From a virus: 64,000 bases of DNA. Of the stretch, positions 713 through 37,136 are shown piece by piece (the first letter of the stretch is position 1; every line of letters starts with the position of its first letter). Under the pieces are notes generated by a model, which searched no databases, was not told the DNA's origin, and saw only the letters and a program-made list of their open reading frames with translations. The stretch lies in IMG/VR virus record IMGVR_UViG_3300025133_000042, positions 1 through 64,000 of that record; one strand, written 5' to 3'. Made by a program: the position numbers and the translations under genes.

Positions 713-1696
713 TCAAGACCCACCAAAGCCCGCCGGGGCTGATTTACTTCTCTTATAACTAGGTTTTTGGCCGTAAGGTGTTGAATTTTTTTGACCTCCG
801 AGGGCAATTAGGCGCTTTTTCATGCGTTTATGCCGCGATCTGATCTTTTTCTGGTACTTTTCTATTTCGTTGAGCTTCATTTGGTCTGATTTTAAGTCAT
901 TTTTAACAAAAATCTTCAATTTCCTACCAAATTTGCCGTTTAGAGACCTCATTTTATCATATGACTGCACATATATGTCATCTAGCAAGCCTAAATACTC
1001 AGAATTTCTTAAAATTTTAAAAGCCAAGTTCTCAGGGGAGAATTCACCACTGTCTTCTAGGCCTGATTTGCGAAAATTTCTTATTTTTTCCTTTAATTTA
1101 TCAGAAAATTCATGCGCTAGCGCGTAATTCTCTTCTTCCAGGAAGTCTGACGCACGTTCGATCTGATCTGCAAGCATTTCAGCCTTCTTCATGACCAATT
1201 TATCATCAATTGCTATCTCTTTTCTCTCGGGTCTGATTATCCAGTCGCCGTCTTTCACCGAAAAGACGCCAGTCGAGTGGTGTAACTCCCCAGAATCTTG
1301 TATATATATCTCAATTTGGTGTCCGGCCATGAAAATATCATGCTTTCTATTCCACATTCCGGATTTAGCTCTAAAAAAATCGCTTACTAGGTCCCGATCG
1401 AAGGGAATTTTTGAGAAGTCAACAATAATATGCAAATCGATATCTGAAAAATTAGTCCAATTATAGTTTGCGATCGACCCGGTTATGGTGATGTCTTCGA
1501 TGTTAACATCATCTATCTCCAGACTTTCCCAAAACTCTTCAGCAACTTGTAATATTTTCTCCCTTACTGCCTTTTTTAGATCATCGTCGTCCCACAGGCC
1601 AGTATAAAGTGTTTCTTTTGGTAGATATCTTTTTGGATCGACCAGTTTTCTCTCATTTATATAAGTATTCCAAGATTTTTTGTTCATTAAAGTCAT
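713..1696 (-). CDS. Nucleotidyltransferase-fold protein
   Basis: The 327-residue product carries a Pol-beta-superfamily signature: GS at residues 73-74, then DID at 85-87 (SDIDLHIIVD), with a later acidic residue in IEIYI near 128. The C-terminal half is charged and helical and ends in a basic Gly/Ser-rich tail. The N-terminus, KSWNTYINER, resembles short Trp-and-Glu peptides at the ends of several other proteins here. A GGAG motif lies five bases before the chosen ATG; an internal ATG at 1687 is possible. It follows a small membrane protein and precedes the peptidase gene. Nucleotide and acceptor are unknown. Confidence 0.6.
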   Translation of the reverse strand: MTLMNKKSWNTYINERKLVDPKRYLPKETLYTGLWDDDDLKKAVREKILQVAEEFWESLEIDDVNIEDITITGSIANYNWTNFSDIDLHIIVDFSKIPFDRDLVSDFFRAKSGMWNRKHDIFMAGHQIEIYIQDSGELHHSTGVFSVKDGDWIIRPERKEIAIDDKLVMKKAEMLADQIERASDFLEEENYALAHEFSDKLKEKIRNFRKSGLEDSGEFSPENLAFKILRNSEYLGLLDDIYVQSYDKMRSLNGKFGRKLKIFVKNDLKSDQMKLNEIEKYQKKIRSRHKRMKKRLIALGGQKNSTPYGQKPSYKRSKSAPAGFGGS

Positions 1697-3082: not shown

Positions 3083-3310
3083 CTAGCAGTCTGCTTTCTT
3101 CTTTGTGATCATCAATGTTTTTGTAATAACATCTGATTTAAACTCTTCCAACAAGTGTGAAAAATTTTCAATATCGGATTTTGTTATCTCATCCATCATC
3201 GCCCAAAGAGAATCAACTTCATCTTTAAGCTCTGCATTTTCTTTTTTAGCTTTTTCTATTAATTTATCGAGCTTTTTAATTTCTTCTTCTAATTCATCAA
3301 CTTTACTCAT
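3083..3310 (-). CDS. Small coiled-coil protein
   Basis: The start is taken at ATG 3310, which overlaps the stop of the VWA lipoprotein gene (ATGAGTAA), giving 75 residues. Most of the length is a Glu/Lys-rich heptad pattern typical of a coiled coil. Tight coupling to the lipoprotein gene suggests co-translation, but nothing shows the two proteins interact. Confidence 0.55.
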   Translation of the reverse strand: MSKVDELEEEIKKLDKLIEKAKKENAELKDEVDSLWAMMDEITKSDIENFSHLLEEFKSDVITKTLMITKKKADC

Positions 3311-5207
3311 TTGTTCCACCTTTACATATTTCATCAAGAATCTCCATCAAACTAGCATACATCTCAGTAGGATTGTTTGTGAGTTTATACCAAGCTCCAT
3401 TTCCAGCATTAGCAATATCTTCCCACTGTGTTGAGCCAGAAGATCTTGAGAATGTATATAGTTTAAGCTGCGGCGTGCCAGAAACAGCTGTTTTAACCTC
3501 TTCTACCTTTAATTCCGGACTCAAGTAGCTTTGAGGCTCCTCATCGCTAAAAACAATGATTATACGATCCGCGCCTGCCCGCCAACTAATATCAAAATTT
3601 TGCAAAGGCGGCGAGGATTCGATTACGCTAGTTCCTATTCCATTTGTGCCAGCTGCTCCAGACCATTGAAAATTAGACATGGGCTGAGGAAGGGTCGCCG
3701 TAATATTATGTACCGATATATAAATTGCATCAAGGAGCATTTCAAAAGCAGTACTCATCGATTGGGAGCTAGTATCCATGGCGGCCAAAGAAGCCAGGTA
3801 ATCAGAGAACCCGATTAAGTCTTGTACTAGTTCCAAACGCTCGTCATAAGTTGAAGGCAGCACAGCCACAGGCCCGCGCATAAATGCCCACTTAATAACA
3901 TCTTCGTCACTGAAATTTTGCGCAAATTGATTTAATGCTATCATTACGGCACTCATTTCATCGCCCATAGATCCAGACCAGTCAACAATGAAAAGAACAT
4001 CAGTTTCTTTCATCTCTTCGCCCCAGTCTGCTATGCCATCACAATCATCATCAAGCCCATTGCAAATTTCTGTTTGAGGTGTTATTTCGCCACTGCAATA
4101 AAATGGAATGAAGTTCTCGTCATCATCATAACTCCCCCACGCGCCGGCATCACAAGTCATTTCGCCTGGTATGCATATGCCGGTCATTATCGTTCCTTCT
4201 GGTCCGGTGTAGCATGGAGCATTGAGATCTTCATCGATTTCTTGGTTGCAGTTATCATCAAAATTATTACACTTTTCCTGGCTTAGTTCCATTCCAATCA
4301 GGGGATCACAAACACTATTTGGATCTCCAGAAGGCACCCAATAACACAAAGCATAGCATTCTGTCATCGCAAGGTCTATACAATCCGGATCTAAGCATTG
4401 ACATGTTTTATATCCCTGCCCACATAATAATGGATCATCTTGACACGGAAACAACACTCCGACATCCTGCATCGTACAAACACATTCTAGCCCTTCGTCG
4501 ATCTGACCGTCGCAGTCGTTATCTAAGCCATCGCAAACTTCATCTAATTCAGCCGGCGCAGTACAAGATACCCAGCTTCCCTCATAACACATCTCGTATC
4601 CAGCTCCGCATGCTGTGCTGCAGGGCTGAATAAGCCCTTCGTCTGTATCTCCGTCACAATCATCATCAAAACCGTTACACTGCTCGCCAGGTATTATTCC
4701 ACACTCGTCACATGCATTTAGCTGCCCTTCGTCGATTTCTCCATCGCAATCATCATCTTCATAGTTGCATAATTCTTCTTCGCAGGCTGTAGTGCAATCT
4801 GTATATTGTATCAAGCCTTTATTACAAACTTTTTCTTGAGTGCCAGGATATCCATCTGCAGTCGTACATTCAACTTCAGCAATAAGATATTGTGTTGGAT
4901 CGCACTCCATATACTGTATGCATTCAGATTCCGAATATAATACCTTGGGGTCTTCACAAATATTAAAGCATATCTCTTTTCTCCAAATTGAATCTAGTGG
5001 AGGGCAAAAATACCAATCGCACTCAATACACTCCGGATCCGGCGGAGGAGGTTCGGCTACCCAAGGAATAACTTCTATTATATCTTCTTCTTGTACATCT
5101 ACATCTTCAACTACATCTGGAATATTAGTATTATGCTCTTGTCCCGCATCGCTGCAACTAATCTGCAGAGAAATAAGCGCTACAAGAGCCAATACCAAAT
5201 TTTTCAT
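3303..5207 (-). CDS. MopE-repeat and VWA-domain lipoprotein
   Basis: The 634-residue product has a lipoprotein-like signal (LQISC, Cys18), an acidic linker, and a Cys-rich region with five MopE-type repeats (pattern C-[ND]-x-x-D-[DN]-[DN]-C-[DN]) near residues 147, 177, 225, 313 and 382. A von Willebrand A domain follows from about residue 402 with the metal site DWSGS at 409-413. The repeats match the putative metal-binding motif family named after the copper-binding MopE protein. The protein should be anchored in a membrane and face outward, where the VWA domain could bind a partner through a divalent metal. Such proteins are typical of Myxococcota-type bacteria and unusual on a phage. Role unknown: surface change of the infected cell or a virion adhesin are both possible. 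Confidence 0.75.
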   Translation of the reverse strand: MKNLVLALVALISLQISCSDAGQEHNTNIPDVVEDVDVQEEDIIEVIPWVAEPPPPDPECIECDWYFCPPLDSIWRKEICFNICEDPKVLYSESECIQYMECDPTQYLIAEVECTTADGYPGTQEKVCNKGLIQYTDCTTACEEELCNYEDDDCDGEIDEGQLNACDECGIIPGEQCNGFDDDCDGDTDEGLIQPCSTACGAGYEMCYEGSWVSCTAPAELDEVCDGLDNDCDGQIDEGLECVCTMQDVGVLFPCQDDPLLCGQGYKTCQCLDPDCIDLAMTECYALCYWVPSGDPNSVCDPLIGMELSQEKCNNFDDNCNQEIDEDLNAPCYTGPEGTIMTGICIPGEMTCDAGAWGSYDDDENFIPFYCSGEITPQTEICNGLDDDCDGIADWGEEMKETDVLFIVDWSGSMGDEMSAVMIALNQFAQNFSDEDVIKWAFMRGPVAVLPSTYDERLELVQDLIGFSDYLASLAAMDTSSQSMSTAFEMLLDAIYISVHNITATLPQPMSNFQWSGAAGTNGIGTSVIESSPPLQNFDISWRAGADRIIIVFSDEEPQSYLSPELKVEEVKTAVSGTPQLKLYTFSRSSGSTQWEDIANAGNGAWYKLTNNPTEMYASLMEILDEICKGGTNE

Positions 5208-5218
5208 ATGCTAAACCC

Positions 5219-5518
5219 TCATGGTCTTCTTCGTTTAAAGATGCCTCTCATGTCAATTTCTTGTGTCTCTCTGTCTGCGTCGAATGCATGGTCATGAAGC
5301 GCGCAGTACTCTGAATAAAGATCTGCCATCGCTTTTCCACACTTATAAGCGCTAGGATACTTTTTATAAAAAAATGCTTGACCCGCCGATCCAAGCCAAA
5401 AATTTGGATGCATTTTCCATTTCTGAGTAAGTACGTTTGCTCTTGCCTCGCCAATAAACTCCCCTTCAACATAAATCGCTTGAGTATATTCGTCTATTTG
5501 TTTCCAAGATATACTCAT
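5219..5518 (-). CDS. Hypothetical 99-residue protein
   Basis: The product is mixed charged and aromatic, with no signal peptide or membrane segment and a basic C-terminus. Its ATG overlaps the stop of the endolysin gene (ATGA), so it is translationally coupled to it and may be a regulator or partner of lysis. No family is recognised. Confidence 0.55.
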   Translation of the reverse strand: MSISWKQIDEYTQAIYVEGEFIGEARANVLTQKWKMHPNFWLGSAGQAFFYKKYPSAYKCGKAMADLYSEYCALHDHAFDADRETQEIDMRGIFKRRRP

Positions 5519-6369
5519 CTGATATCCTCTAAAATCTTGTCCAACTCAAGGCCGGCACAATCTATCTTGCCCCGCGTTAAGTGATAATGACAAACGACCC
5601 CTTTATATTTTCTATTCTTTGCAGGATCGTAGACTTTTGTTATCAAATCGCCGTTTTCAGTAGGGCACTGGAGGGGTATGTCATAATGACTGCTCAAAGC
5701 TCTTAAAAGGGCCTTGTAGGCTGCAATTTGAACAGGATAGTATCCAAGGTGCGGTCCTAGCTTTCTACCATGGACGCGGCTGGTTATTACAGGGCGTTTG
5801 CCAAATTTGTGTGCCTCATACCACTTATTGTATTTTGTGTAATATGCATTAGAAAAATCTATTCCTATCGAAACGCCATTAACTCCGCCTGCATGCCAGG
5901 CGGCATGGTTAGTATCGACAAACTGATGAATAACGCCATCATTATCAATACAAAAATGAGAAGATATCCCTCTTGCATGCAAAACTCTTCTGCACTTCTC
6001 CGCTGAAGTTGTTGCGTCCCAGTGCGTAACAATCATCTTTGGCTTTCTGATGGATCTAGATTTTTTATAGCAATTAGATGGAAGGAGGCTTAACTTGACA
6101 TCCCAGTCAATCTTCATCTTGACTCCATCTACTAGTATAAAGCTACCGAATCCGCGCGCGTCAAGGTCGCGACTACTAAGAAGCCTTCTGAAGGTCTGAG
6201 GACCAACCAGTCCATCAGTTTTTAAGCTGTGTTCTGCCTGAAAAAGTTTAATCCTTGCGATTAGGTATTTATCAAATCCTTGCAGCATCGGATCAAGCCA
6301 AGTTGGATCCCAGCCAAACTTTTTGGCTGATTTTTTATTATAGTTATTTATTCTCCACTCGCTAAACAT
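5515..6369 (-). CDS. Endolysin: N-acetylmuramoyl-L-alanine amidase with PG-binding domain
   Basis: The 284-residue protein has an N-terminal peptidoglycan-binding-1 motif (residues about 37-63, ending DGLVGPQTFRRLL) and a C-terminal amidase_2/PGRP domain. Predicted zinc ligands are His116 (VTHWD), His263 (CHYHL) and Cys271; the eight-residue His-Cys spacing matches T7 lysozyme (His122/Cys130). It should cut the amide bond between N-acetylmuramate and L-alanine during lysis. There is no signal peptide, so a holin or another export route is needed. AGGAAA lies before the ATG. Confidence 0.85.
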   Translation of the reverse strand: MFSEWRINNYNKKSAKKFGWDPTWLDPMLQGFDKYLIARIKLFQAEHSLKTDGLVGPQTFRRLLSSRDLDARGFGSFILVDGVKMKIDWDVKLSLLPSNCYKKSRSIRKPKMIVTHWDATTSAEKCRRVLHARGISSHFCIDNDGVIHQFVDTNHAAWHAGGVNGVSIGIDFSNAYYTKYNKWYEAHKFGKRPVITSRVHGRKLGPHLGYYPVQIAAYKALLRALSSHYDIPLQCPTENGDLITKVYDPAKNRKYKGVVCHYHLTRGKIDCAGLELDKILEDIR

Positions 6370-6430: not shown

Positions 6431-7174
6431 TTATTCCTCGTATTTGTATTTATATGAGCCCGGCGGCGGCGACACGGTATTGCCACGAGCATATGCACTA
6501 TCACCTTTTTCAGGCTTATAGTCAGGATCTTTTACGCAGTCCCCGCCAGAGCCACCAGCGCTCTTCCAAAAGTAACCGTCAGGACAATTGCCTTCTTCAA
6601 GCTCATCCTCTTCTAACTTTCTCTTTTTTGCACTCGAAAAGCGCTCAGCATAATCTTTGTCGGCACTAACGCTCTCCGGCTCTTCGGCACCCCGAGATTT
6701 CATTTGTCTGATCGCCTGCAGCGCTGCCATGTCAACTGCCGTCTTCTTAGATTGTCCGCGCTTAGATTTTTTGCCAATGCCCTGGAGGTGCTGCTTAAAT
6801 CTCTCTCCAAAGCCCTCATCAAAGATTTTTACAATCTCCTCTTTGACAACCTGTTCAAGATCTTCTTCCTCTTTAAGAGTGCCTTGCTGTTTTTTAATTA
6901 GACTTACTACATTCATAGCGATATCATATTCATATTGGCTGACTTTTCCACTGGCCAATAGTTGCTCAAGCTCTAATTCAATATCTTCGGTACCTTGCGC
7001 AAGCTTAGACATAGGGATATCTCCTGACTCGTCATCAAAAGCTTGGTCGTATTTGCCAGAAAATTTTATATCTCCCATCGTCGGTGAGTCTTCTCCCCCC
7101 ACATCCCGCGCTTCCCGCATTGCGTCAGCTTCTTCTTTAATAATTTGCTTTAATCGTTTTTTTGTAATTTTCAT
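6431..7174 (-). CDS. Tagged internal-type protein 1 (MKITK tag)
   Basis: This is the last gene of the tagged cassette. Residues 1-15 are MKITKKRLKQIIKEE; the I-K-E before the body fits a T4-type prohead-protease site. The 247-residue body is mostly charged helix (a second IVKEE-like stretch lies near residue 110), with a C-terminal Cys/Gly patch (NCPDGYFWKSAGG) and a Pro/Tyr/Lys tail. No enzyme motif is visible. By inference it is packed in the head and processed; the alternative is that the tag is a docking peptide. Confidence 0.65.
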   Translation of the reverse strand: MKITKKRLKQIIKEEADAMREARDVGGEDSPTMGDIKFSGKYDQAFDDESGDIPMSKLAQGTEDIELELEQLLASGKVSQYEYDIAMNVVSLIKKQQGTLKEEEDLEQVVKEEIVKIFDEGFGERFKQHLQGIGKKSKRGQSKKTAVDMAALQAIRQMKSRGAEEPESVSADKDYAERFSSAKKRKLEEDELEEGNCPDGYFWKSAGGSGGDCVKDPDYKPEKGDSAYARGNTVSPPPGSYKYKYEE

Positions 7175-7198
7175 GTTAAGGGTCCTTTAACTCTTTCT

Positions 7199-7609
7199 TT
7201 AATTGCATCCTTCGTACTGGCATGCCTGGCACTCTCCGCCGCGACACTTCCCGCTAGCACAATCCTCCGTGCTCTTGCACTCCCCGCCGGCTTTCTTTCC
7301 AACAAATCCACCCGGAGTTTGATCTCTGCAGCATTCCCATTCAGGAAATAATTCAGGAAACCACTTGAGTTCGAGCGGCCCCGGCCGGCCGCCGCGCTTA
7401 GCTTTTGCTTCCGCCTCCCGACGCCTCCGGTCAGCTAGCACGGCTCCAGCTGCTCCTCCGTGGCTTTTAAAAGCTCCTTTCCCCGCAGCTGCTCGTTCGC
7501 GCTCAATACGATCCAAAGTACCATATCCCGGTCCGCTCCCCCATTCCTTGATTGCAGCTGCTAGCTCTTCTTTAATAATTTGCTTTAATCGTTTTTTTGT
7601 AATTTTCAT
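7199..7609 (-). CDS. Tagged protein 2 with Cys-rich C-terminal domain
   Basis: After the tag MKITKKRLKQIIKEE the 136-residue product has a Gly/Ala/Arg-rich middle and a C-terminal region of about 40 residues with nine cysteines, including CKSTEDCASGKCRGGEC. Such spacing suggests a small disulfide- or zinc-stabilised module. A disulfide-rich domain would be odd in the cytoplasm but reasonable for a protein carried in a virion. It starts at the stop of the upstream tagged gene. Confidence 0.65.
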   Translation of the reverse strand: MKITKKRLKQIIKEELAAAIKEWGSGPGYGTLDRIERERAAAGKGAFKSHGGAAGAVLADRRRREAEAKAKRGGRPGPLELKWFPELFPEWECCRDQTPGGFVGKKAGGECKSTEDCASGKCRGGECQACQYEGCN

Positions 7610-8529
7610 TATTCAAAAACACCACTTTCCGTGTGTAATATTTCTGCAGCTTGTTTTAGTACGGTAGCTTCTTCTGGATTAAAACTATCGGCAACGTTGC
7701 GTAAATCTTCCGCCATTTGGAATAAGTCAGGCGTTTCAGGCAGCTCAATGTCTTCTTTTAGTCCCTCTTCAGGCAAATCAAGTTGCTGTTGTTCACCGGA
7801 TTGCATTTGCATTAAATCAGCCCATTTTTCTGGATCAGATACCTTCAGATCATCCATCATTCTTGTTAACATTCCGGCCGGCCATCTTTTTAAAGCAGCA
7901 AGAACATGATCATAAGATTCGCGTGCCTCTTTAGCTGCTGTTATCTCTTCTTCCAAAAATTGTTTTATCTGTTCTTCTGTGATTTTATCTCTTTCCAACG
8001 CCTCATGAGTAGCAAGTCCGCTCGTGCCTCCGCCAACAGTTCCTCGCGCCGGCGCGCCGGGTATGTCTCCGGCTTGTGTATATCCTGAATACTTTCCCTG
8101 ATTGATATTAAGCCACGTCAACAAGGGCTTCATTTCAGGACCATATATCCAAGAACGTAATGCACGTTGAGGGCCCGAAGCTGAAATGCCGGCCAACATC
8201 ATATCTGCAGATATTTTATTATCAACTAACTTATTCAGCGCCTCTTCGTTTGAAAATCCTGCCTTTTCGAAAATCCTGCTCCAATAATTTTTTAGGCCCT
8301 CCGGAGACAGCCTGTCTCTGGCATATTTTCTGCCCATCCCGGCATGCCCTGAAACTCCCGTTCGGCCAGCCCCGGGCACGTGATGGCCACCAGCTCCAGC
8401 CGGCCCCGATCGCGCCTCATGAAAAGTCGTCTGCAGTTCTTCTTTGATTTGTTTCAGGCCCTCTCCATTCAGAAGATGCTCTATTTCTTCTTTAATAATC
8501 TGCGCTAGCAGTTGTTTTGTAATTTTCAT
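7609..8529 (-). CDS. Tagged protein 3
   Basis: The 306-residue protein has the tag variant MKITKQLLAQIIKEE, a Gly/His-rich stretch at about residues 40-70, and then helical regions with several acidic segments. No catalytic motif is recognised. It abuts its neighbours within a base or two on both sides, so it is one member of a single transcription unit. Confidence 0.6.
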   Translation of the reverse strand: MKITKQLLAQIIKEEIEHLLNGEGLKQIKEELQTTFHEARSGPAGAGGHHVPGAGRTGVSGHAGMGRKYARDRLSPEGLKNYWSRIFEKAGFSNEEALNKLVDNKISADMMLAGISASGPQRALRSWIYGPEMKPLLTWLNINQGKYSGYTQAGDIPGAPARGTVGGGTSGLATHEALERDKITEEQIKQFLEEEITAAKEARESYDHVLAALKRWPAGMLTRMMDDLKVSDPEKWADLMQMQSGEQQQLDLPEEGLKEDIELPETPDLFQMAEDLRNVADSFNPEEATVLKQAAEILHTESGVFE

Positions 8530-8726
8530 TAATCTGTATCTCCATAGTGCTCATCTTCGAGCCAGTCTAGCGGGTATTCCCTCTCTTCATTCTCTTTATT
8601 CTGAATCATTTGACATACTTCCACAATATGCTCTTTCGGAATCGTATTTTTCATCTCAATCAAATTTTTCTTAGCCTCCATGGAGGTTAAAGTATTCTTA
8701 GACATCTCAACGCATATCAAGCACAT
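8529..8726 (-). CDS. Small untagged protein inside the tagged cassette
   Basis: The 65-residue product lacks the MKITK tag and is the exception in the cassette. It starts at a TAATG overlap with the gene before it. The sequence begins Cys-rich (MCLICVE), then is helical, with an acidic C-terminus. Function unknown. Confidence 0.5.
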   Translation of the reverse strand: MCLICVEMSKNTLTSMEAKKNLIEMKNTIPKEHIVEVCQMIQNKENEEREYPLDWLEDEHYGDTD

Positions 8727-9250
8727 TATTCATTCTCCTTGTTTTCATATTGCGATACTAAATGTTGTCTTCTTAATTTTTCCATTTCCTCGGGATTGCC
8801 GCGGCTCCAATGCGGCGCAACGGCCCTTACATGCGCCATCTTTGCTGCTCCGAGCATAAATTCAAATCGTTGTGAGGCCTGTTCTAGTTCTTCCGGAATA
8901 TCTTGATTGCCAAATTTTCCAGCAAGACTATCTAATAATTCCATGCCTTCCTTGGCATATTTAAAAACGGCTTTCCAGCCGCCTTTCCCAGTCCTCGTCG
9001 TCCCGGTAATCTCATTCACTTCTTCTTCTGCCAGGCCAGTACTTCCATATAAGCTCAAGACTCTAGTTAGGCTCTGATCATCAGCATTAGAAAATATTGC
9101 AAAAAGAGGATGCTTTTGGCCAAGCGTTCTCCACGATCGATTTGTAACCAGATCTAAAGCTTTTTGAGCTTTGTTCGGTACTTCTTCTTGTAAAACCGCC
9201 TCAAGCTCCTCGACAATTAGTTCTCTCAGTCGTTTTTCTGTTGTTTCCAC
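8726..9250 (-). CDS. Divergent tagged protein 4
   Basis: The N-terminus METTEKRLRELIVEELEAVL is a clear but diverged version of the cassette tag: hydrophobic, basic and Glu positions are conserved while the MKITK start is not. The 174-residue body is helical with no recognised motif. It shows that the tag pattern is kept while exact residues drift, which argues for selection on the peptide. Confidence 0.55.
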   Translation of the reverse strand: METTEKRLRELIVEELEAVLQEEVPNKAQKALDLVTNRSWRTLGQKHPLFAIFSNADDQSLTRVLSLYGSTGLAEEEVNEITGTTRTGKGGWKAVFKYAKEGMELLDSLAGKFGNQDIPEELEQASQRFEFMLGAAKMAHVRAVAPHWSRGNPEEMEKLRRQHLVSQYENKENE

Positions 9251-9251
9251 T

Positions 9252-9515
9252 TTATAAATACTCCTCGCTTTCGTTTAAGAATGGATCGTTTGTTGCTTTA
9301 TTGTCCTTCAGCGCCTGATGGAGAGCGAAAATTACACCATTGTCCAAATGAGTATACCGCGGAGGATCTTGTGCAGCCTGCTCAGCAGCTTCGACCAACA
9401 TTCGATTTAACTTGCTTCTAATTCTATCAATTGTCATATAGCCATATCCAGCAACCAAAACACTTCCCAGCTCTTCTTTAATAATCTGTTTTAATTGTGA
9501 TTTTGTTATTTTCAT
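9252..9515 (-). CDS. Tagged protein 5
   Basis: Translation from ATG 9515, just past the TAA of the gene before it, gives 87 residues starting MKITKSQLKQIIKEELG. The short body is helical. Upstream in-frame codons would lie inside the neighbouring gene, so the tag start is preferred. Confidence 0.6.
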   Translation of the reverse strand: MKITKSQLKQIIKEELGSVLVAGYGYMTIDRIRSKLNRMLVEAAEQAAQDPPRYTHLDNGVIFALHQALKDNKATNDPFLNESEEYL

Positions 9516-9516
9516 A

Positions 9517-9825
9517 TTATTCTCTCCCACGTCCCCCAACGCTGGCCTGTTTAGCTAAATATTCTAGCTTTGCAGCCAGGTCGTATTGATTTTCGCCATA
9601 TTGCAGGTCCAGTAACTCTCTAACAGCTGCCAATACTTCAGCCGTTTTTTCATCGGCGCGCCTGGTAACATCAAACATGCTAGGAGAGTGCCCAACTTCT
9701 GATGCTGGTGAGCCGAGAGGAGTTCCTGTTGCAAAGTCAGTACCAGCGACCGGTCGAATGGCTTCAAGTGACAACTGAAGTTCTTCTTTGACAATTTGTT
9801 TTAATTTTGATTTTGTAATTTTCAT
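9517..9825 (-). CDS. Tagged protein 6
   Basis: 102 residues beginning MKITKSKLKQIVKEELQ. The middle is Gly/Ser/Thr-rich and the C-terminal half helical, ending GRGRE. No known domain. Four bases separate it from the upstream tagged gene. Confidence 0.6.
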   Translation of the reverse strand: MKITKSKLKQIVKEELQLSLEAIRPVAGTDFATGTPLGSPASEVGHSPSMFDVTRRADEKTAEVLAAVRELLDLQYGENQYDLAAKLEYLAKQASVGGRGRE

Positions 9826-9829
9826 GTTT

Positions 9830-10462
9830 TTATGCCTTCTTTAATACTTCAGCAGCATGCTTGCCAGTGAAGGGTTTTCTTCCCTTAGGTGATGACCATC
9901 TGACACTAACATTTTTCGCCCCGCGGGCAGTAACTTTGCCTTTCCCCAACTCAGGCTCTTGCTTGTGAACAACGGAATCTCCTTCACGAAATCCAAATTT
10001 GGGAGCAGCTTCTTCAAGAGCACCGCCCCTCGATCCAAGTTTGGATTCTATATTTTCATTTCTTTCTTTTTCTAAAACTTTTGATAATTCGTTTGTTGCT
10101 GTTCTATAGCTAGATGAAGTCAAGCCGCCCGGCGCATCGGCCTCTTTTACATAATTTTCCACCGCCGCGCGTAAATCGTCAGACATCGCCTGATCTTTCA
10201 AAGAATCTTTGAGGCCGCTTATAAGCTGTGCAGCTTCTCTCTGGTTACGATCATATAGCGCATTGTGCGCGCGAACAAAAATATGGTTTATGTATCGCCT
10301 AGAGCGTTCTTCCGTTGGCTGCGATCCTGTTTCCGTTGGCTGTCGAATGTCAGTGAATGCTCGTACGCCGTCGGGTACTTCCCACCCACCAGGCGCTTCT
10401 TTAATTGCGCGCTGCAACTCTTCTTTAATAATCTCTTTTAGTTTTTGTTTTGTAATTTTCAT
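9830..10462 (-). CDS. Tagged protein 7 with C-terminal KOW/Tudor-like module
   Basis: After MKITKQKLKEIIKEE the 210-residue product has a helical body. Its final 55 residues read FREGDSVVHKQ, GKGKVTARG, VSVRW, a strand pattern like the KOW/Tudor-like tail of PcrA-type helicases and like the small KxGDLV proteins elsewhere in the window. That module could bind RNA polymerase or nucleic acid (inference). It is the only cassette member with a recognisable fold class. Confidence 0.6.
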   Translation of the reverse strand: MKITKQKLKEIIKEELQRAIKEAPGGWEVPDGVRAFTDIRQPTETGSQPTEERSRRYINHIFVRAHNALYDRNQREAAQLISGLKDSLKDQAMSDDLRAAVENYVKEADAPGGLTSSSYRTATNELSKVLEKERNENIESKLGSRGGALEEAAPKFGFREGDSVVHKQEPELGKGKVTARGAKNVSVRWSSPKGRKPFTGKHAAEVLKKA

Positions 10463-10971
10463 GATGCCTCCTCGATGGCTTCCCCTACAAAAATCGGATT
10501 TTTTCTTACGCCGCCGCCATATTGAGCGTATTCATAAACCTTGAATTCTCCACGTCGATACCGCGGTGATGTCTCCGTCGCAGCCAAATTAATTGCTTTT
10601 TGTGGGTCGTTCACAACTCTTTTTGAATTTCTTTTGACCCTGAAAACTTTTCCATCGGGCGCCACAACAGCAAAATAGTCTATATTTTCACCCTCTTTTA
10701 AAATTGTTCTTTGAATCGTAGATAAAATATATTGAGCACTATCACTTAAAGACCAAAAATCAGATCTTTCGCCGGCAAGAATATCCCTTACTGCTTGTTG
10801 TTCCGCGGGATCAGCAAGTTTTCTAATTTCATCATCAATTTTCATTTGCGCAGCTTCTTTATCACTTGGAATATCAGCAGGATCAATTCCTGTATCAATG
10901 TGCGCCTCTTTAATAGTTTTTTTAATCTCTTCTTTAATAATCTGTTTTAATTGTTGTTTGGTAATTTTCAT
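10459..10971 (-). CDS. Tagged protein 8
   Basis: Start chosen at ATG 10971, which overlaps the upstream stop (ATGA) and begins the tag MKITKQQLKQIIKEE; 170 residues. The body has a helical first half and a beta-looking second half (VVAPDGKVFRVKR). No family recognised. The next gene also overlaps it by four bases. Confidence 0.6.
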   Translation of the reverse strand: MKITKQQLKQIIKEEIKKTIKEAHIDTGIDPADIPSDKEAAQMKIDDEIRKLADPAEQQAVRDILAGERSDFWSLSDSAQYILSTIQRTILKEGENIDYFAVVAPDGKVFRVKRNSKRVVNDPQKAINLAATETSPRYRRGEFKVYEYAQYGGGVRKNPIFVGEAIEEAS

Positions 10972-11531
10972 CCTTTTGGCTCCCATGTATATCCTGGATC
11001 CTCGGGCCTATAGCCTCGACGCTGAGCTGCTTTTCTTCGCTGATCCTTTATCCGTTGCTTATCGGACGCAGCTGCTTTTTTATCAAGATCTTTTTTGTAT
11101 TCTGATTGCTTACGTGCTCTTCGAATTTCATACTCTGTATCAACGTCTTGTACTGCTTTTTTTGCTGTTTGTCCGCGCTCATAATCAGCTCCAGCTTTAA
11201 CGTTACCTGTTTCAATATCGGCTTCTGCCATGGCGACTAGTTCATCATAGATTCTTTTCTCTAAGCGACGAATTTCTTGACTGCTTAAACCAACCCTCGG
11301 CCAATTTCCTTTTTTCAGGCCCTTAAATCTTCCAGCCACCTTATCAACAGTTGATCTAGCCTCTAGTTCTGCATTTACAATACCGCCGACTTGCCATTTC
11401 GACAAGTCTTCAGCTTCTTCTGGCGATTCTGGTGTTGGCCATTTTTTTGGATCGGTATTAAATTTAGCACCGGTAAGACCAGCGAATTCTTCTTTAATAA
11501 TCTGTTTTAATTGTTGTTTGGTAATTTTCAT
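10968..11531 (-). CDS. Tagged protein 9
   Basis: 187 residues; the tag MKITKQQLKQIIKEE is identical to that of the next gene downstream, at DNA level too. The C-terminal part is long, basic and helical (KQRIKDQRRKAAQRRG), suggesting nucleic-acid contact. ATGA overlaps link it to both neighbours. Confidence 0.6.
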   Translation of the reverse strand: MKITKQQLKQIIKEEFAGLTGAKFNTDPKKWPTPESPEEAEDLSKWQVGGIVNAELEARSTVDKVAGRFKGLKKGNWPRVGLSSQEIRRLEKRIYDELVAMAEADIETGNVKAGADYERGQTAKKAVQDVDTEYEIRRARKQSEYKKDLDKKAAASDKQRIKDQRRKAAQRRGYRPEDPGYTWEPKG

Positions 11532-11833
11532 TCCGGAGCAACACCTTTTTCAATAGCAGCCCAACGATCATCATCAACCGCATCTTCTTTTCTCGCAGAC
11601 ATAGCTATTTGCTCAATTGTTTTTAATAAAGCCTCCGCTTTGCCATAAATCAATTCTATATTACTTGGCTTGGTAATTACAGTTTGGTCAAACTGCTTAA
11701 GTATCGAATCCAGATCACCAGCCAATTCTCTAGCTTTTACTAGAAGATTGTCGTTTGATTCTATATCAAGTTCTTGAATTAATTTTAATTCTTCTTTAAT
11801 AATCTCTTTTAGTTTTTGTTTTGTAATTTTCAT
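11528..11833 (-). CDS. Tagged protein 10
   Basis: 101 residues starting MKITKQKLKEIIKEELK. The rest is predicted all-helical with an acidic C-terminus. It overlaps both neighbours by four bases. No recognised domain. Confidence 0.6.
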   Translation of the reverse strand: MKITKQKLKEIIKEELKLIQELDIESNDNLLVKARELAGDLDSILKQFDQTVITKPSNIELIYGKAEALLKTIEQIAMSARKEDAVDDDRWAAIEKGVAPE

Positions 11834-12162
11834 TCGTCTAGTTTCCCACCAGTTCGACTGGAATTCGCTTTAAAAATTGCTTCTATCCATGCGATTTTTG
11901 CAAGGTTGAAATCTGCCGTCAATTTGAAGTTTGGATCAAAATTTAATTTTAATTCTTTTGCTTTTTTCATTAGGATTGCTTGCCCATCTCGAATCATCTT
12001 AGAGCCTTTTTGCAAATCTTCTAGGCTGGGCGCAGGTCGCGGGCCCCGACGATCCAGAGCTTGGCGCGCGACAGCAACGGCGCGCTCATCGCGATAACTC
12101 TCTTGTAGCAGCGCTAGCTCTTCTTTTAAAATCTGCTTTATCTGCTCTTTTGTAATTTTCAT
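11830..12162 (-). CDS. Tagged protein 11 (first of the cassette)
   Basis: 110 residues starting MKITKEQIKQILKEEL, then a helical body with a basic Arg-rich early part. It is transcribed first among the tagged genes and is coupled by ATGA to the upstream lipoprotein gene, so the cassette probably shares a transcript with that gene and the large protein before it. Confidence 0.6.
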   Translation of the reverse strand: MKITKEQIKQILKEELALLQESYRDERAVAVARQALDRRGPRPAPSLEDLQKGSKMIRDGQAILMKKAKELKLNFDPNFKLTADFNLAKIAWIEAIFKANSSRTGGKLDE

Positions 12163-12605
12163 TTTTCACTCCTTGTAATTTCAAAGAAAGCAACGTTAAT
12201 ATTCTGCTTGCTCCAATGAAAACTCTCAATTTTCAACTCAAAAATCTTAATATTAACCTCGCCGCCGAGCTTTCGGGCCATATGCTCACCCCAAGCGATG
12301 ACCAAAAGGCGAACAGCCGTGACTTCTTCCCGCGAAGCCGGCCCGGGCCAGGCCACAACAACCAACTCATCGATCCCCATGCACTTATGGTGTCGAGCAA
12401 AATTCGCTTTAAGACGAATTGCCCTCTGGCGCAAATTATACACTTCAACCGGATTTTTACAATTTTCCAGCCCTTTGATCGATATTTTGGCGATTTTTTC
12501 CGAATGCAAGGAGCTGTTAGCGCGATTTGATACATTACCAGCGGCGCAGGCCACCAATAATACAGATAAAAACACAGTTAGGGCTAATTTTAATAAATTT
12601 TTCAT
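12159..12605 (-). CDS. Predicted lipoprotein
   Basis: From ATG 12605 (ATGA overlap with the upstream stop) the 148-residue product has a classic lipoprotein signal, MKNLLKLALTVFLSVLLVAC, with lipobox LVAC. The mature part is small and mixed alpha/beta, with no known domain. It should be membrane-anchored. Superinfection exclusion is a common job for phage lipoproteins but is only a guess here. Confidence 0.65.
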   Translation of the reverse strand: MKNLLKLALTVFLSVLLVACAAGNVSNRANSSLHSEKIAKISIKGLENCKNPVEVYNLRQRAIRLKANFARHHKCMGIDELVVVAWPGPASREEVTAVRLLVIAWGEHMARKLGGEVNIKIFELKIESFHWSKQNINVAFFEITRSEK

Positions 12606-14893
12606 TTTTTGTATTTTCTCCACTCATTAAGTATGCCTTTCCAATCGTCAAAAGAGGAAAAACTACTTTCAGCAACTCGCTGCTGCCTTCTCATCTCGCT
12701 ATATGCATAATCTTTCTTAAATTTAGGAAGAATCTCTTTCACAATCATGTTTGTAACAATGGCCTCGGCCAGGAGCCTCAACCTCTCGTGAAATTTATCA
12801 TGATCTGCCATTTTAACAAATTTTTCAATGATTTTTAAGGCTTCTGGCTCTTCATTGCCCTGCAGCTGTACATCAAGCCATACTTCAATGCGATCTGCGA
12901 ATTTATACTCGCTGGTGCCGCCACCAAGACCAGTGCCGCCAGTTCTGGCTGTCTTAAAGCCAACATTGATGTTATAATCTGGAATAGGGTGGCCTGTTTC
13001 GGCTTCAGTTTCAGCAAGATTTAGCTTTTGCTGCGAAGCGATAATCTCAAGAGCCCGATCAGTGACATCTTGCATCCTCGCGATAATTTTATCTTTAAGC
13101 TTGTGCATATTTTGTCGCAGCCCGGTATGAATAGCTGTATGCATGGCCCGCATCAATCGATTTTCTTCTGTACCCTCAGGCCCGACGCCAGATTTTACTT
13201 TTGTCAGAAGCTCCGAGGGCAAATAAAGACGAACAGGCAAAAAAGTTGTCATTGTAACCTTGTTTTCTTCCAAATCAACGTCAAAATGCTTAAGATCCAT
13301 ATCCTCAAAGCGCTGAAGATTTGCATATGTTTCCTCACTCGCGAAGAAGCCGGCCTCATCAAGCCCAGACAAAAGCGTTTCGCGAAAATTTTCATACTCT
13401 GCGTCGTATTGCGACACGCGATCGACGAAAGCCTTAAACCCGTCCCAGCCCATTTCATCATAATCAGGGTCAACCCGTATGTAAGCTCGATTGCCACTAT
13501 CCTCTTCAACGTTATCTGGGTATATGCCGGCAGCATTCAAAGCGGACGTCACATAATCTTCAAAGCTGTCAATGTCTTCTGCCAGGCCTTCGGTTTCATC
13601 CAAATCAATTAATGCGCTTGCACTATAGTGATGGCCGTCTTCAATTGGCTCATAATAAATATTAAAATTCTCAACTTGCGCATCCCTTATATATTCCTCA
13701 TAATCATCAGCCGTTGCGCCGCCCGGATTTTCAACAGCATGCTGGCCAGCTTGACCCAGAATACTCCAATGATCCTCAGAAACAAGATCCTCGAAGGCTT
13801 CATGTACATCAACCTCAGTGGGGTCACCCAGCCCAAGGCCCTTCAAAATATACATAACAGTCTGAGGGATCGCAATCCCAGAATCCTCATGACCGCCATC
13901 GGAATAATCACTCATCCATTCAGTAAACACATCTTCCACATCAGAGGACAATTCCCGGGGATTAACTTGCGCGCCCTCATGGCCAGTGAAGACTTTATCG
14001 TCCTTACCCTCTCGGCCGGAGGCCGACCTAAAAATTTTCAGAAATTCTTTCGGGTTATCTTGCCCCAAAGCATACCCTTTCATCACCAAATTGCTATATG
14101 TACCGTCTCGTAAGCCGTCAGTGCCCACTTCATCGTCAGAGACATCATACACTTCCTCTGGTTCGGGCTCGCTAGATTCTTTTGCGTCAGCGCCATAAAC
14201 GAGGGCCATTTTCTTGTTCCAATCATCATTGTGAAGATGCTTAAAGAGGACAAAATAAAATACTTTGCCTTCCTTATCCGTATATTCGTCAAACCAGTTT
14301 CGCGACTCAGTTGCTGAGATGCACCATTTCGTGCCGCGTCCATAATAGCAAGCACCATCTTCGTCGTTTGGGCGAACCATCATCCAGTTATCTGCATCAT
14401 CGATAACGTCAGAGCTTTCTTTTGCTTTCTCTTCACGCTCTTTAGCATCATGCCGAGCCTGCAGCTCTTTATACGCAACGTAGATCTGTTGCTCCCAATC
14501 ACCAAAGTCCTTAAACTTGTTAATATCTTTGTCAATCAGGTTTTTTTCAGCTAAGCGATGGTATTTTCTTATATTATTGCGAATTGTGCTAAAGCGTCGA
14601 GATGCTTCATATTTAATCTCATTGCCAGCAGCGTCGACATCGCGCTGCATGCCAGTCTCATAGTTCTTTTGCATCTTAACCAGACGTGTATTGACCATGC
14701 CGGCAGCCCACATCGCGTATTTTTGGTTTCCGCTAGGGTCATTCGCGAGGATTTCGGTCTTAAAAAGGCCTTCAACGTACTGAATGACGTCCTGGCCCTT
14801 CAATCCCTTTACAACGCGCTTAAGGGCATCGTCCTTACGCCCCTCGACGAGAATTCGCGTTAACTGTTCCATTATAAGGCTAGAGAAGGCCAC
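12602..14893 (-). CDS. Large phage protein with GTKWC motif
   Basis: About 763 residues. GTG 14893 is preferred because GGAG lies eight bases upstream; ATG 14872 is the alternative and would start MEQLTRILVEGRK, a short peptide ending L-V-E like a prohead-cleavage tag. The first third is helical, then GRGTKWCISATESRN near residue 195 marks a compact domain whose name I do not know. The middle is very acidic, and the protein ends FDDWKGILNEWRKYKK, a Trp/Glu peptide seen at the ends of other genes here. It heads the operon leading into the tagged cassette. A structural or injected protein is my best guess. Confidence 0.55.
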   Translation of the reverse strand: MAFSSLIMEQLTRILVEGRKDDALKRVVKGLKGQDVIQYVEGLFKTEILANDPSGNQKYAMWAAGMVNTRLVKMQKNYETGMQRDVDAAGNEIKYEASRRFSTIRNNIRKYHRLAEKNLIDKDINKFKDFGDWEQQIYVAYKELQARHDAKEREEKAKESSDVIDDADNWMMVRPNDEDGACYYGRGTKWCISATESRNWFDEYTDKEGKVFYFVLFKHLHNDDWNKKMALVYGADAKESSEPEPEEVYDVSDDEVGTDGLRDGTYSNLVMKGYALGQDNPKEFLKIFRSASGREGKDDKVFTGHEGAQVNPRELSSDVEDVFTEWMSDYSDGGHEDSGIAIPQTVMYILKGLGLGDPTEVDVHEAFEDLVSEDHWSILGQAGQHAVENPGGATADDYEEYIRDAQVENFNIYYEPIEDGHHYSASALIDLDETEGLAEDIDSFEDYVTSALNAAGIYPDNVEEDSGNRAYIRVDPDYDEMGWDGFKAFVDRVSQYDAEYENFRETLLSGLDEAGFFASEETYANLQRFEDMDLKHFDVDLEENKVTMTTFLPVRLYLPSELLTKVKSGVGPEGTEENRLMRAMHTAIHTGLRQNMHKLKDKIIARMQDVTDRALEIIASQQKLNLAETEAETGHPIPDYNINVGFKTARTGGTGLGGGTSEYKFADRIEVWLDVQLQGNEEPEALKIIEKFVKMADHDKFHERLRLLAEAIVTNMIVKEILPKFKKDYAYSEMRRQQRVAESSFSSFDDWKGILNEWRKYKK

Positions 14894-14934
14894 TAAAAAC
14901 ACTCCAAATGGGTTTTGCTCATTGTAATTAGTTC

Positions 14935-26928: not shown

Positions 26929-27115
26929 TTAGAGCCTCCAGCCATCGTTCGCTGTTCCATGAATAGTCAGCGCAGCCACGGGGCGCGTCGAACCAGTATA
27001 CCCTGTAAGGACAGCCATTCGGGTTCGTAAGTTGTGGCCTGCTTACTTCTATTATAATCCCCAAGCTGTTGTGGTCAAGGGCATGATTGTTTTTTACCAA
27101 ATCACCGACTTTCAC
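26918..27115 (-). CDS. KxGDLV-family protein
   Basis: 65 residues: MKVGDLVKNNHALDHNSLGI, then YRVYWFD and a Trp-rich end. GTG start inside the upstream stop (GTGA). The last residues ALNES are encoded over the next gene's start region. Confidence 0.65.
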   Translation of the reverse strand: MKVGDLVKNNHALDHNSLGIIIEVSRPQLTNPNGCPYRVYWFDAPRGCADYSWNSERWLEALNES

Positions 27116-27348
27116 TTATCACCTGTACAGACTTTTGAGATTATTTTTACCAGACCTTCAGTCAGGGCATCTTCGCCTATGTCGCAGACGTAAGGAATAC
27201 TCGGCCACTTTATCTTCCATGAGGGCATCATGCCATCTGGGTATTCCGCTAATTCTCCAACTACGCCTACTTTGTAGCCTGGGCCGATAGCCACCACGAG
27301 ACCTATCTCGCCATCAGTATGGTCTTGAATTAAATCACCGACTTTCAC
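27112..27348 (-). CDS. KxGDLV-family protein
   Basis: 78 residues: MKVGDLIQDHTDGEIGLVVA, then a Gly-rich loop, WKIKWPS, and a longer C-terminal strand ending TGDK. 14-base overlap with the gene before it. Confidence 0.65.
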   Translation of the reverse strand: MKVGDLIQDHTDGEIGLVVAIGPGYKVGVVGELAEYPDGMMPSWKIKWPSIPYVCDIGEDALTEGLVKIISKVCTGDK

Positions 27349-27523
27349 TGAAAACCTTTAGTTCTAGTGCGTCGTACCACATACGACCGATTTCCTCAAA
27401 GTCGTCGAACCACTGTACCTCAAAGTAGACGGCGCCTTCGGCGCTCTCGTGGGAGTCCAGTACAATGCCTTTTCCTGGTGGATGTAGCCGATTGTTACGG
27501 ACAACCAAATCACCGACTTTCAC
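27335..27523 (-). CDS. KxGDLV-family protein
   Basis: Start is GTG 27523 (read MKVGDLVVRNNRL) inside the preceding gene's last codons; 62 residues with FEVQWFDDFEE and the overlap-made ending FSESR. Confidence 0.65.
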   Translation of the reverse strand: MKVGDLVVRNNRLHPPGKGIVLDSHESAEGAVYFEVQWFDDFEEIGRMWYDALELKVFSESR

Positions 27524-27701
27524 TGACAATCTCCAGATCTTCTTCTTCATACCACAGAAAGTCTTCAGGCCACTGGACGCATATGCTTAGCGCGGAGTGC
27601 CTCGACGACTCTATCATTATTACAATGCCGATGCCAGAGTCAATGTCCGACCCAAAAACTAGGCTTCCCTCTTTGCACCTTACCAAATCACCGATTTTCA
27701 C
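27510..27701 (-). CDS. KxGDLV-family protein
   Basis: 63 residues: MKIGDLVRCKEGSLVFGSD, GIGIVIMIESS, CVQWPEDF, ending EIVSESR. 14-base overlaps at both ends. Confidence 0.65.
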   Translation of the reverse strand: MKIGDLVRCKEGSLVFGSDIDSGIGIVIMIESSRHSALSICVQWPEDFLWYEEEDLEIVSESR

Positions 27702-27855
27702 TGAGTATTACCAACTGAGATTCCGGCCATTGTATTCGTTCGTCGCCACAAATAACTGTATACCAGCCACGCCAGGCCTCCGACGAAGAAACTATTAAGC
27801 CGAGCCTCTCGTCAGAAAACGAACCAATCAGCTTAACAATATCACCGACTTTCAT
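27688..27855 (-). CDS. KxGDLV-family protein (55 residues)
   Basis: Reads MKVGDIVKLIGSFSDERLGL, then WYTVICGDE and a short end ILSENR. It fills exactly the space between its neighbours with 14-base overlaps at both sides, which confirms it despite its length. Confidence 0.6.
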   Translation of the reverse strand: MKVGDIVKLIGSFSDERLGLIVSSSEAWRGWYTVICGDERIQWPESQLVILSENR

Positions 27856-28024
27856 TTAGCAACTCCAAAAGTTCATGCTCGATGGGGTAAAGCCCGCTAT
27901 GCTCAGGGCTACCAAACCAATGAATAATAGCCTGGTCTCCATACTTATCGCCGTCGATGTCCAAGATAATGCCGATATCTTTCGCGTGTGGATGTGTCCA
28001 CTTAACCAAATCACCGACTTTCAT
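27842..28024 (-). CDS. KxGDLV-family protein, leaderless
   Basis: 60 residues: MKVGDLVKWTHPHAKDIGII, IIHWFGSPEH, ending LLNESR. Its ATG is six bases after the -10 of a promoter that lies in the 3' end of the upstream gene, so part of the array can be transcribed from here without a leader. Confidence 0.65.
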   Translation of the reverse strand: MKVGDLVKWTHPHAKDIGIILDIDGDKYGDQAIIHWFGSPEHSGLYPIEHELLELLNESR

Positions 28025-28030
28025 GTCTTA

Positions 28031-35696: not shown

Positions 35697-35724
35697 AACA
35701 TAGGAATGGTCGCGTGTCAGTCAA
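35697..35724 (-). promoter_or_regulatory. Promoter of the restriction-modification pair
   Basis: -35 TTGACT (35719-35724), 16-base spacer, -10 TATGTT (35697-35702), 19 bases before the nuclease ATG. The -35 overlaps the end of the gene at 35717. Confidence 0.55.
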
Positions 35725-36349
35725 GAACTATTTTGGAAAGAGCTTTAGCAGCCATGCGCTCTAATCGGCTCAATGATTTCAGGGTCTCAAGGCCTTCGGA
35801 GAATGTGAATGGCCGGCCTTGGACGCGCGTCATAAACTCTGATTCTTCGCCCATCTTGAGATTCCCAACTTCGATTTTCTGGTCTAGACCAGGAAATTCA
35901 CTATTGTTTGTGCCATACAAATAGGCGCCTTGACCACCCATGGGAATTATCAAAACTGAATCTTGACAGAACTTTTTGCCTAACATTATTATATTATTAA
36001 TAAAGTTTGAATCTTCCTCAAGGTTGACTACGATTAGGCTCTGCTCACCGACCTCGACGGCATCAGGGGTCTCAAAGTCCTCGATATAACTGCCCTTCGC
36101 CTTTGTTACTCCATACTTTAAAGACAGCAACGCAGCCTTTAAATTGCGATTTCTAAGCATGTTTGACCCCGAGATGCCCCCATGGTCGTCGGAAGCTGTC
36201 GGATCCGGGGAAGAGCACTTAGAGAGGTCAGCTGGGTCATCCCTGAAGGCAGTTATAACTGCAACATCAGTCTTCCCGATAAAATGGTAGACCCTCGAAA
36301 GAGAAGACTCATTGAGAAAGGACTTCCACTTTTCAGGCCCCGAACTCAT
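35717..36349 (-). CDS. Hypothetical protein with N-terminal KWKSFLNE peptide
   Basis: 210 residues. The start MSSGPEKWKSFLNESS carries a Trp/Leu/Glu peptide like those at the ends of other proteins here. The body (NRNLKAALLSLKYG, EQSLIVVNLEED, SVLIIPMGGQGAYLYG) is alpha/beta and vaguely like DUF3293 proteins. ATGA overlap with the upstream gene. Possibly a head-packaged protein. Confidence 0.55.
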   Translation of the reverse strand: MSSGPEKWKSFLNESSLSRVYHFIGKTDVAVITAFRDDPADLSKCSSPDPTASDDHGGISGSNMLRNRNLKAALLSLKYGVTKAKGSYIEDFETPDAVEVGEQSLIVVNLEEDSNFINNIIMLGKKFCQDSVLIIPMGGQGAYLYGTNNSEFPGLDQKIEVGNLKMGEESEFMTRVQGRPFTFSEGLETLKSLSRLERMAAKALSKIVLD

Positions 36350-36621
36350 TGGGCCACCTCGGCGCGGCGCAGGCAGGCTTTCAGTGTTCTAATTTCCTTA
36401 CCGGCGTTAATAACTCTAACCTCATCAGTGCGATATTCTGTTTTAGACAGATCTGTGCCGCGCAGTAACTTTAAGTGTGCCATGGCAGAAATATATTTAT
36501 CGTCGCTAACCCAATCAATGCCGGCATATGACCAGCCATCTTCTTTAATTTCAACTTTCTTGATCACCCCGTATCTTCGGATGCCTTGATAGTCTTGAAA
36601 CACTACATCATCAATCTTCAT
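36346..36621 (-). CDS. KxGDLV-related SH3-like protein
   Basis: 91 residues: MKIDDVVFQDYQGIRRYGVI, then SYAGIDWVSDD. The core is recognisable though the Gly is Asp, and a charged helical tail is added. Coupled by ATGA on both sides. Confidence 0.5.
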   Translation of the reverse strand: MKIDDVVFQDYQGIRRYGVIKKVEIKEDGWSYAGIDWVSDDKYISAMAHLKLLRGTDLSKTEYRTDEVRVINAGKEIRTLKACLRRAEVAQ

Positions 36622-37136
36622 TTTGTCTCCTTGCGAACTTCAATTGGCTCAAACCATACAACGATGTCTAAGCCTGATGTGTTATAATATGCACCCTTGT
36701 AGGGGGAGCCTTTCGGAAGTAGGCTCTCAGGTGGTGGGCCATATTTTGATTGTCTTGGCTTGTTGCCTAAACTTCTTAATATTCTATCATAATCTGGAGT
36801 GACTCTGTAGGGGGAAATAGACTTTTGTTTCAATTCCAGGGGATCTTCAGACAAATTATAAATCTGAGATGCAAGCACTTCAACAGAATACAAAGTTGCG
36901 CTCTGAGATACTTGATCTTCTGCTTGGTCTAAGTTGGTGTAAAAAAATATCCTTGGCATATCAGAAACATTATAGTCATTGCGAGAATAGGGTTGTCTTT
37001 TATCCAGAAAATACCCTGGGTCGAGAAAAAGACTTTCTTCGTCTGCGCCGGAAAAATGATACAAAGTCACGTTGCCAGATAAGCCGACAGACTCTACTAG
37101 GGTAAAATTCTTCCATTTTTTAAAAAGATCTTTCAT
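36618..37136 (-). CDS. Possible injected protein with KWKNFTLVE peptide
   Basis: 172 residues. The start MKDLFKKWKNFTLVESV ends in L-V-E, as a prohead-protease site would. The body begins VTLYHFSGADEESLFLDPGY and continues with PRIFFYTN and YSVEV strands; Tyr-His then G/S near a strand faintly recalls ADP-ribosyltransferase folds, which T4 also packages (Alt), but no catalytic Glu motif is certain. Confidence 0.5.
   Translation of the reverse strand: MKDLFKKWKNFTLVESVGLSGNVTLYHFSGADEESLFLDPGYFLDKRQPYSRNDYNVSDMPRIFFYTNLDQAEDQVSQSATLYSVEVLASQIYNLSEDPLELKQKSISPYRVTPDYDRILRSLGNKPRQSKYGPPPESLLPKGSPYKGAYYNTSGLDIVVWFEPIEVRKETK

Follow-up and report, generated by a model that had tools for sequence, protein, structure and literature searches.

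A short N-terminal tag shared by unrelated proteins of a virus with T4-type head genes: a probable capsid-targeting propeptide

Tagged genes of the window

The DNA considered here (the window, 64,000 nucleotides) comprises bases 1-64000 of the 104,857-bp IMG/VR virus record IMGVR_UViG_3300025133_000042, the remainder of which was also analysed. Eleven minus-strand open reading frames (ORFs) at 6431-12162 begin with a common tag (Table 1). The tag is very probably a capsid-targeting propeptide, with which unrelated late proteins would enter a T4-type prohead, lose the tag to a gp21-type protease, and be delivered as cargo at infection. Ten of the tags begin with MKITK, and one, at 9250, has a GTG start and the diverged form METTEKRLRELIVEE. 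Slight departures occur in three of the ten: QLLAQIIKEE (8529), IVKEE (9825), and EQIKQILKEE (12162). A twelfth tag, MSMTKKRLKQIIKEEISGLLEAE, lies outside the run, at 66913-67260 of the record.

A start-anchored profile, built from the tags of other viruses only, was compared with 754 ORFs and 15,080 shuffled N-termini. All twelve tags score between +15 and +61 bits, against -7 for the next best ORF and -18 for the top shuffled start. The sharing of the tag is not due to chance. In the diverged copy the core is altered and the second motif, LEAVLQE, is kept; it is considered real because its score is far above those of the other ORF starts and the shuffled starts. The first-pass annotation had described eleven tagged genes, ten near-identical and one diverged, and this description stands for the run; the record as a whole holds one more, and the ten are slightly less uniform than described.

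The eleven bodies are mutually unrelated, as the first-pass annotation had also stated, and relatives among the 265 tagged proteins collected were found only for 9252-9515 and 10459-10971. The 265 bodies fall into 208 clusters, of which 185 are singletons. The largest cluster (30 members) was rejected as a single family, being a single-linkage product of several shuffled modules. Known domains occur in a few cargo proteins and include DnaJ, leucine-rich repeats, and pentapeptide repeats; a zeta-toxin/AAA-like kinase follows a tag-like start in L326. Pfam and PHROGs gave no function for the MKITK bodies of the window, PADLOC gave weak matches only, probably due to chance, on the wider cargo set, and searches of IMG/VR with the bodies returned mostly the tag itself.

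The DNA of the tag had also been described as conserved, and homogenisation is supported by the codons. Within this genome, codons for the same tag residue are identical in 75% of cases; codon use at the starts of other genes predicts 44%, and none of 5000 simulations reached the observed value. Tag codon identity is 0.68 within and 0.56 between loci, base composition not being controlled. Neighbouring tagged genes overlap as ATGA in 36 cases, and exchange at the tag would therefore move whole genes.

The motif ACTA[AT]TTA is found 19 times on the gene strand and twice on the other strand of the whole record (e.g. 14932, 37150, 47305). Twelve of the 19 copies are intergenic, though intergenic DNA makes up 11% of the genome, and most lie just upstream of head and tail genes. 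As a candidate late promoter in this phage group, it is common to the head and tail genes and the tagged operon. The T4 late-promoter sequence, TATAAATA, was considered for this role and rejected; it is not enriched here, in contrast to ACTA[AT]TTA.

Tag anatomy, head protease, and cargo modules

Across IMG/VR the tag is a 22-residue unit, MKITKxxLKQIIKEEL followed by xxVLxE. Among 263 copies, L16 comes after the core MKITKxxLKQIIKEE, and behind it stands a second [LIVMF]-x-E, which mostly ends at residue 21 or 22. This motif is present inside residues 17-34 in 179 of the 263 tags (68%), compared with 25-33% further down (p 2e-19 against residues 61-78). The T4 gp21 protease is specific for L/I-X-E, and the function of the capsid targeting sequence is established in T4 (PMC9026906). 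In this phage and in 15 other phages with the tag, the gp23 propeptide, its end placed by comparison with T4 gp23, ends in L-x-E, nearly always as LL[R/K]E↓[A/S/G/Q] (↓, cut position, known or predicted). The tag is thus a short, propeptide-like N-terminal segment common to unrelated proteins, and it ends in the same [LI]-x-E motif that closes the capsid propeptide of the same phage.

The first-pass annotation had placed the cut at I-K-E. I-K-E14 does fit the gp21 rule, but the second, fixed site matches the capsid propeptide better, and a cut after residue ~22 is more likely on sequence grounds. One cargo module stands directly after the tag VLDE in one protein and behind other domains elsewhere, and residue 22 is therefore indicated as a working cut. 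Single-sequence AlphaFold2 models were made for two proteins and gave a usable layout for one, with no structural match. In this layout (10459-10971) the tag forms a helix over residues 5-22, the linker behind it is modelled weakly, and a further break lies at ILKE93.

The record carries T4-type head genes, namely Peptidase_S77 (gp21), Gp23, the Gp20 portal, and a T4-type terminase. The gp21-type protease (PF03420, E 4.5e-26) lies at 90652-91296 of the record. The tag DNA pattern was found in at least 117 stretches of viral contigs in IMG/VR, and only once, in a metagenome-assembled genome, among 257 Gb of bacterial and archaeal genomes. A copy in a cultured phage is KNV73_gp080 of Flavobacterium phage immuto, MKKSQLRQIIKEA. 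Twenty-nine further tag records, each at least 50 kb long, were compared with 20 random viral records as a control: S77 is present in 19 of the 29 and in two of the 20 (p 1e-4), and the HK97-type S78 exceeds the cut-off in none of the 29. The nearest tag lies within 17 kb of S77 in 17 of the 19 records, at a median distance of 11 kb. A null that placed one tag per record gave 5.3 records on average and 13 at most in 20,000; some records had two tags, and the first tag alone still gives 17.

Four short C-terminal modules (M1-M4) are shared among different proteins; nearly all of their distinct contexts have [LIMV]-x-E, with a variable middle position, directly before the module. Of 28 alignment boundaries, 16 coincide with LxE, where chance would give 4.3 (maximum 13 in 1000); some of the boundaries come from related proteins and are not fully independent. 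The second domain of the 10459-10971 protein starts after ILKE93, where the tagged ortholog in L114 ends. An extra tag-like segment, internal or C-terminal, is present in ten tagged proteins, including 7609-8529, and in none of the sequences of 5-fold shuffles. Some cargo proteins are multi-module chains with modules starting right after [LI]-x-E.

A second, T4-like tag

A second tag, (MKxLF)ENWxxFLxE, occurs in the same neighbourhoods 44 times, compared with 2.45 in shuffles, and is mostly 10 or 14 residues long. Genes with this tag lie within 500 bp of an MKITK gene in 23 of 40 cases, against 25% of control ORFs. It resembles the T4 sequence MKTYQEFIAE↓A in form only. Three genes of the window carry it (Table 1), and one of these, 35717-36349, exceeds the curated cut-off of PF23780 (34.9 bits against 28) and is likely an anti-restriction protein. 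Homologs occur in marine, Microcystis, Alishewanella, Campylobacter, Prevotella (Lak), and Synechococcus phages. They begin with SSLSR or close variants right after [L/F]-x-E, and their upstream sequences differ.

In a published mass-spectrometry study of cyanophage S-CREM2 (PMC10665884), the homolog of 35717-36349 was detected in purified virions with 19 peptides; its authors allow that such virion-detected proteins may be purification contaminants. Several of the virion-detected cargo proteins begin with MKxFxxFLxE. An N-terminal LxE is present in 10 of 13 virion-detected S-CREM2 proteins and in one of 21 undetected neighbours (p 2e-5), in two regions picked for holding virion proteins, and this comparison is therefore support and not a blind test.

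Two observations concern further possible tags. A Cas9-like nuclease reported in S-CREM2 virions (L340, 4005-6614) has FMAE↓A near its start, possibly a tag end. Two adjacent immuto proteins (L129, 12930-14230, NC_055915) share the N-terminus FxLxxFLxENKLTxNxxxLKE, possibly a third tag type.

Proposed route, rival explanations, and other features

The tag, its second motif, the protease, the match to the capsid motif, the gene neighbourhood, the module junctions, and the codon homogenisation are read from sequence; packaging, cleavage, injection, and a counter-defence role of the MKITK proteins are inferred. In the proposed route, an amphipathic-looking helix of ~22 residues (MKITKxxLKQIIKEEL-xx-VLxE) would recruit unrelated late proteins into the core of a T4-type prohead. 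The gp21-type (Peptidase_S77) protease would remove the tag, mostly after [LI]-x-E at 21-22 and possibly also after I-K-E14, and the freed cargo would travel with the DNA into the bacterium at infection. The modules within several cargo proteins are separated by the same [LI]-x-E rule, and cleavage would therefore split some precursors into at least two mature products. The shorter tag of the T4 kind (MKxLFENWxxFLxE) would bring other cargo, including the S-adenosylmethionine (SAM) lyase family protein, into the same route. Bodies would turn over fast through the swapping of whole genes as units, because the near-identical tag DNA and the ATGA-overlapping starts permit such swaps. A tentative extension, conceivable and somewhat doubtful, is that precursor polyproteins are packaged, each made of a ticket helix and interchangeable mini-domains joined by prohead-protease sites. 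The protease would then both license entry and cut the chain into several separately acting injected proteins, and two tickets (MKITK and ENW/MKxF) would load the same head.

Several findings weigh against the capsid-targeting role. S77 is absent from ten of the tag records of 50 kb or more. Two of them (G012 and G020) break off at or just past the portal gene, and four (G013, G015, G024, and G027) carry tags near the contig end. Relatives of non-head genes of the present phage occur in G010, G017, and G028, which may be partial genomes; among them is a 1166-amino-acid protein common to this phage, G010, and G028 (57-66% identical). G029 fits none of these accounts. Some tags lie among non-head genes (G028; the gene at 66913-67260), and most cargo is without recognisable function. 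About a third of the tags (85 of 263) have no clear second LxE, and therefore only I-K-E14 is left as a site in them. The virion evidence from S-CREM2 concerns the second tag class and not MKITK, and its regions were the chosen ones described above.

Instead of injected cargo, the tagged proteins could be parts of the prohead core or scaffold, cut up by the protease and lost from the head in the manner of T4 gp67 and gp68. Many of them are small, charged, and helical with several LxE sites, and the T4 core proteins gp22 and gp67 are fragmented by cleavage. This explanation is nevertheless improbable. Hardly any bodies are related from phage to phage (208 clusters among 265), unlike a core that fits a conserved capsid; some are folded or enzymatic, with DnaJ, leucine-rich repeats, pentapeptide repeats, or a zeta-toxin-like kinase; and a separate gene at 88199-89329 of the record is a scaffold candidate.

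It is very improbable that the genes are recent tandem duplicates whose bodies diverged past recognition, the tag being their slowest-evolving part. Clustering of the genes and homogenised tag DNA agree with duplication, but the bodies differ in length, fold class, and composition, the modules recur in different contexts with sharp boundaries, and the same tag stands on unrelated domain families (DnaJ, leucine-rich repeats, pentapeptide). Shuffling fits better than divergence, and duplication of the tag itself belongs to the capsid-targeting explanation. A general docking helix (e.g. for a tail, replisome, or membrane site) or a translation-start element is likewise highly unlikely, although A-rich starts help translation and the copies in G028 and at 66913-67260 lie among non-head genes. 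The tag is conserved as protein with varied codons (0.56 identity between loci), its codon identity within the genome exceeds that of other gene starts, and its conservation extends to the protease motif at residue 22, tracks S77, and matches the end of the capsid propeptide.

Phage T4: The internal proteins IPI, IPII, and IPIII carry the capsid targeting sequence MKTYQEFIAE↓A (Mullaney and Black; reviewed in PMC9026906), and the injected proteins block type IV restriction enzymes (PMC12373910). Like the MKITK set, they have a short N-terminal propeptide on unrelated small proteins, an [LI]-x-E end, an S77 protease, and polymorphic cargo. The genes ipII and ipIII adjoin the lysozyme gene e, and the MKITK run adjoins an endolysin gene; this PG_binding_1 and Amidase_2 endolysin (5515-6369) lies directly beside it. 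The T4 tag differs in being unrelated in sequence and in having 10 residues (IPII/IPIII) compared with 22. No sequence homology to MKTYQEFIAE was found, nor any match of the tag profile at protein starts in the T4 stretches examined; a tblastn search of cultured phages with the short tag peptide gave no match, the query being too short for significance. In the MKITK set, known here from sequence, a genome holds far more copies, some tags are internal, and some cargo has several modules. It appears to be a much enlarged form of the T4 internal-protein system that shares most of its definable features, with a tag that is not a sequence relative. The T4-like targeting of head-packed proteins proposed at first pass is well supported by the protease, the cleavage motif, the gene position, the confinement to viruses, and the published S-CREM2 virion proteome with its related protein. 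It is amended in the cut site and enlarged by the twelfth copy, internal tags, multi-module cargo, and the second tag class.

Other systems: S-CREM2 resembles the window in its virion SAM hydrolase, homologous to 35717-36349, and in MKxFxxFLxE cargo starts like the second tag; it has no MKITK tag in the stretches examined, and the passages of its report that were examined do not point out the shared N-terminus. The ejection proteins of SPN3US and phiKZ (PMC5694885, PMC10052503) are likewise many, head-packed, ejected, and cleaved after Glu by the prohead protease, and two diverged paralogs (gp53 and gp54) have near-identical N-termini. They differ in their long cleaved propeptides, mostly of 111-254 residues, and come from a lineage of giant phages whose protease has diverged. 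Polyvalent proteins (Iyer et al. 2017, PMC5512222) are multi-domain phage proteins proposed to be packaged, processed, and injected against host functions. These are sometimes very large, some with their own peptidase domains, whereas MKITK cargo consists of small modules split by prohead-protease motifs with the ticket in front. No paper on the MKITK tag was found in the literature searched. The features that appear to be new are the likelier cut at residue ~22, the multi-module cargo, and the admixed second, T4-like tag with its SAM-lyase-family carrier.

In T4, the textbook case, the main internal proteins number three, and each of them is by now reported to block restriction enzymes (PMC12373910). 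Should the capsid-targeting role be true, hundreds of orphan marine-phage genes could be searched as a catalogue of candidate effectors injected at infection, with their mature N-termini given by a rule, and the tag would be a second capsid-loading signal and a potential packaging tool. Orphan modules would be tied to the head-protease code [LI]-x-E, which can be scored in any T4-type genome.

Table 1. Tagged genes and associated features of the window (aa, amino acids; nt, nucleotides)
Coordinates	Strand	Start	Feature	Score or family match
713..1696	-		Second-tag protein, MNKKSWNTYINE↓R; nucleotidyltransferase-like body	PF01909, E 4.6e-4
6431..7174	-	7174	Tagged protein 1, 247 aa; internal tag-like segment DLEQVVKEEIVKIFDE; Cys-containing C-terminal segment after LEE	
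7199..7609	-	7609	Tagged protein 2, 136 aa; second site AIKE; Cys-rich C-terminus	
7609..8529	-	8529	Tagged protein 3, 306 aa; internal tag-like copy KITEEQIKQFLEEEI at residue 182	
8529..8726	-		Small untagged ORF, 65 aa, within the tagged run	
8726..9250	-	9250	Tagged protein 4, 174 aa; core METTEKRLRELIVEE diverged, LEAVLQE intact	Profile +15.2
9252..9515	-	9515	Tagged protein 5, 87 aa; body relatives in L084 and L089, likewise tagged	
9517..9825	-	9825	Tagged protein 6, 102 aa	
9830..10462	-	10462	Tagged protein 7, 210 aa; C-terminal segment after ALEE↓A	
10459..10971	-	10971	Tagged protein 8, 170 aa; tag helix 5-22, helical domain, ILKE93↓ junction, alpha/beta domain	
10968..11531	-	11531	Tagged protein 9, 187 aa	
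11528..11833	-	11833	Tagged protein 10, 101 aa	
11830..12162	-	12162	Tagged protein 11, 110 aa	
12602..14902	-		Leading gene of the operon running into the tagged genes (starts overlap or nearly)	
14925..14932	-		ACTAATTA, candidate late-promoter motif; lies 30 nt upstream of the leading gene 12602..14902	
35717..36349	-		Second-tag protein, MSSGPEKWKSFLNE↓SS; S-adenosylmethionine lyase family	PF23780, E 1.7e-8
36618..37136	-		Second-tag protein, MKDLFKKWKNFTLVE↓S; body of no known family; candidate promoter ACTATTTA 14 nt upstream	

Other genes of the window: The 634-aa ORF at 3303-5207 has a lipoprotein-like start, many repeats of the CDGxDNDCDG type, and a von Willebrand A-like region, which by sequence reading is odd for a phage. 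Small, mutually similar ORFs starting with MKVGD at 27112-30264 possibly form a second repeated family of small genes. The ORF at 42561-44126 reads as GroEL-like chaperonin, and a related ORF is present in G010.

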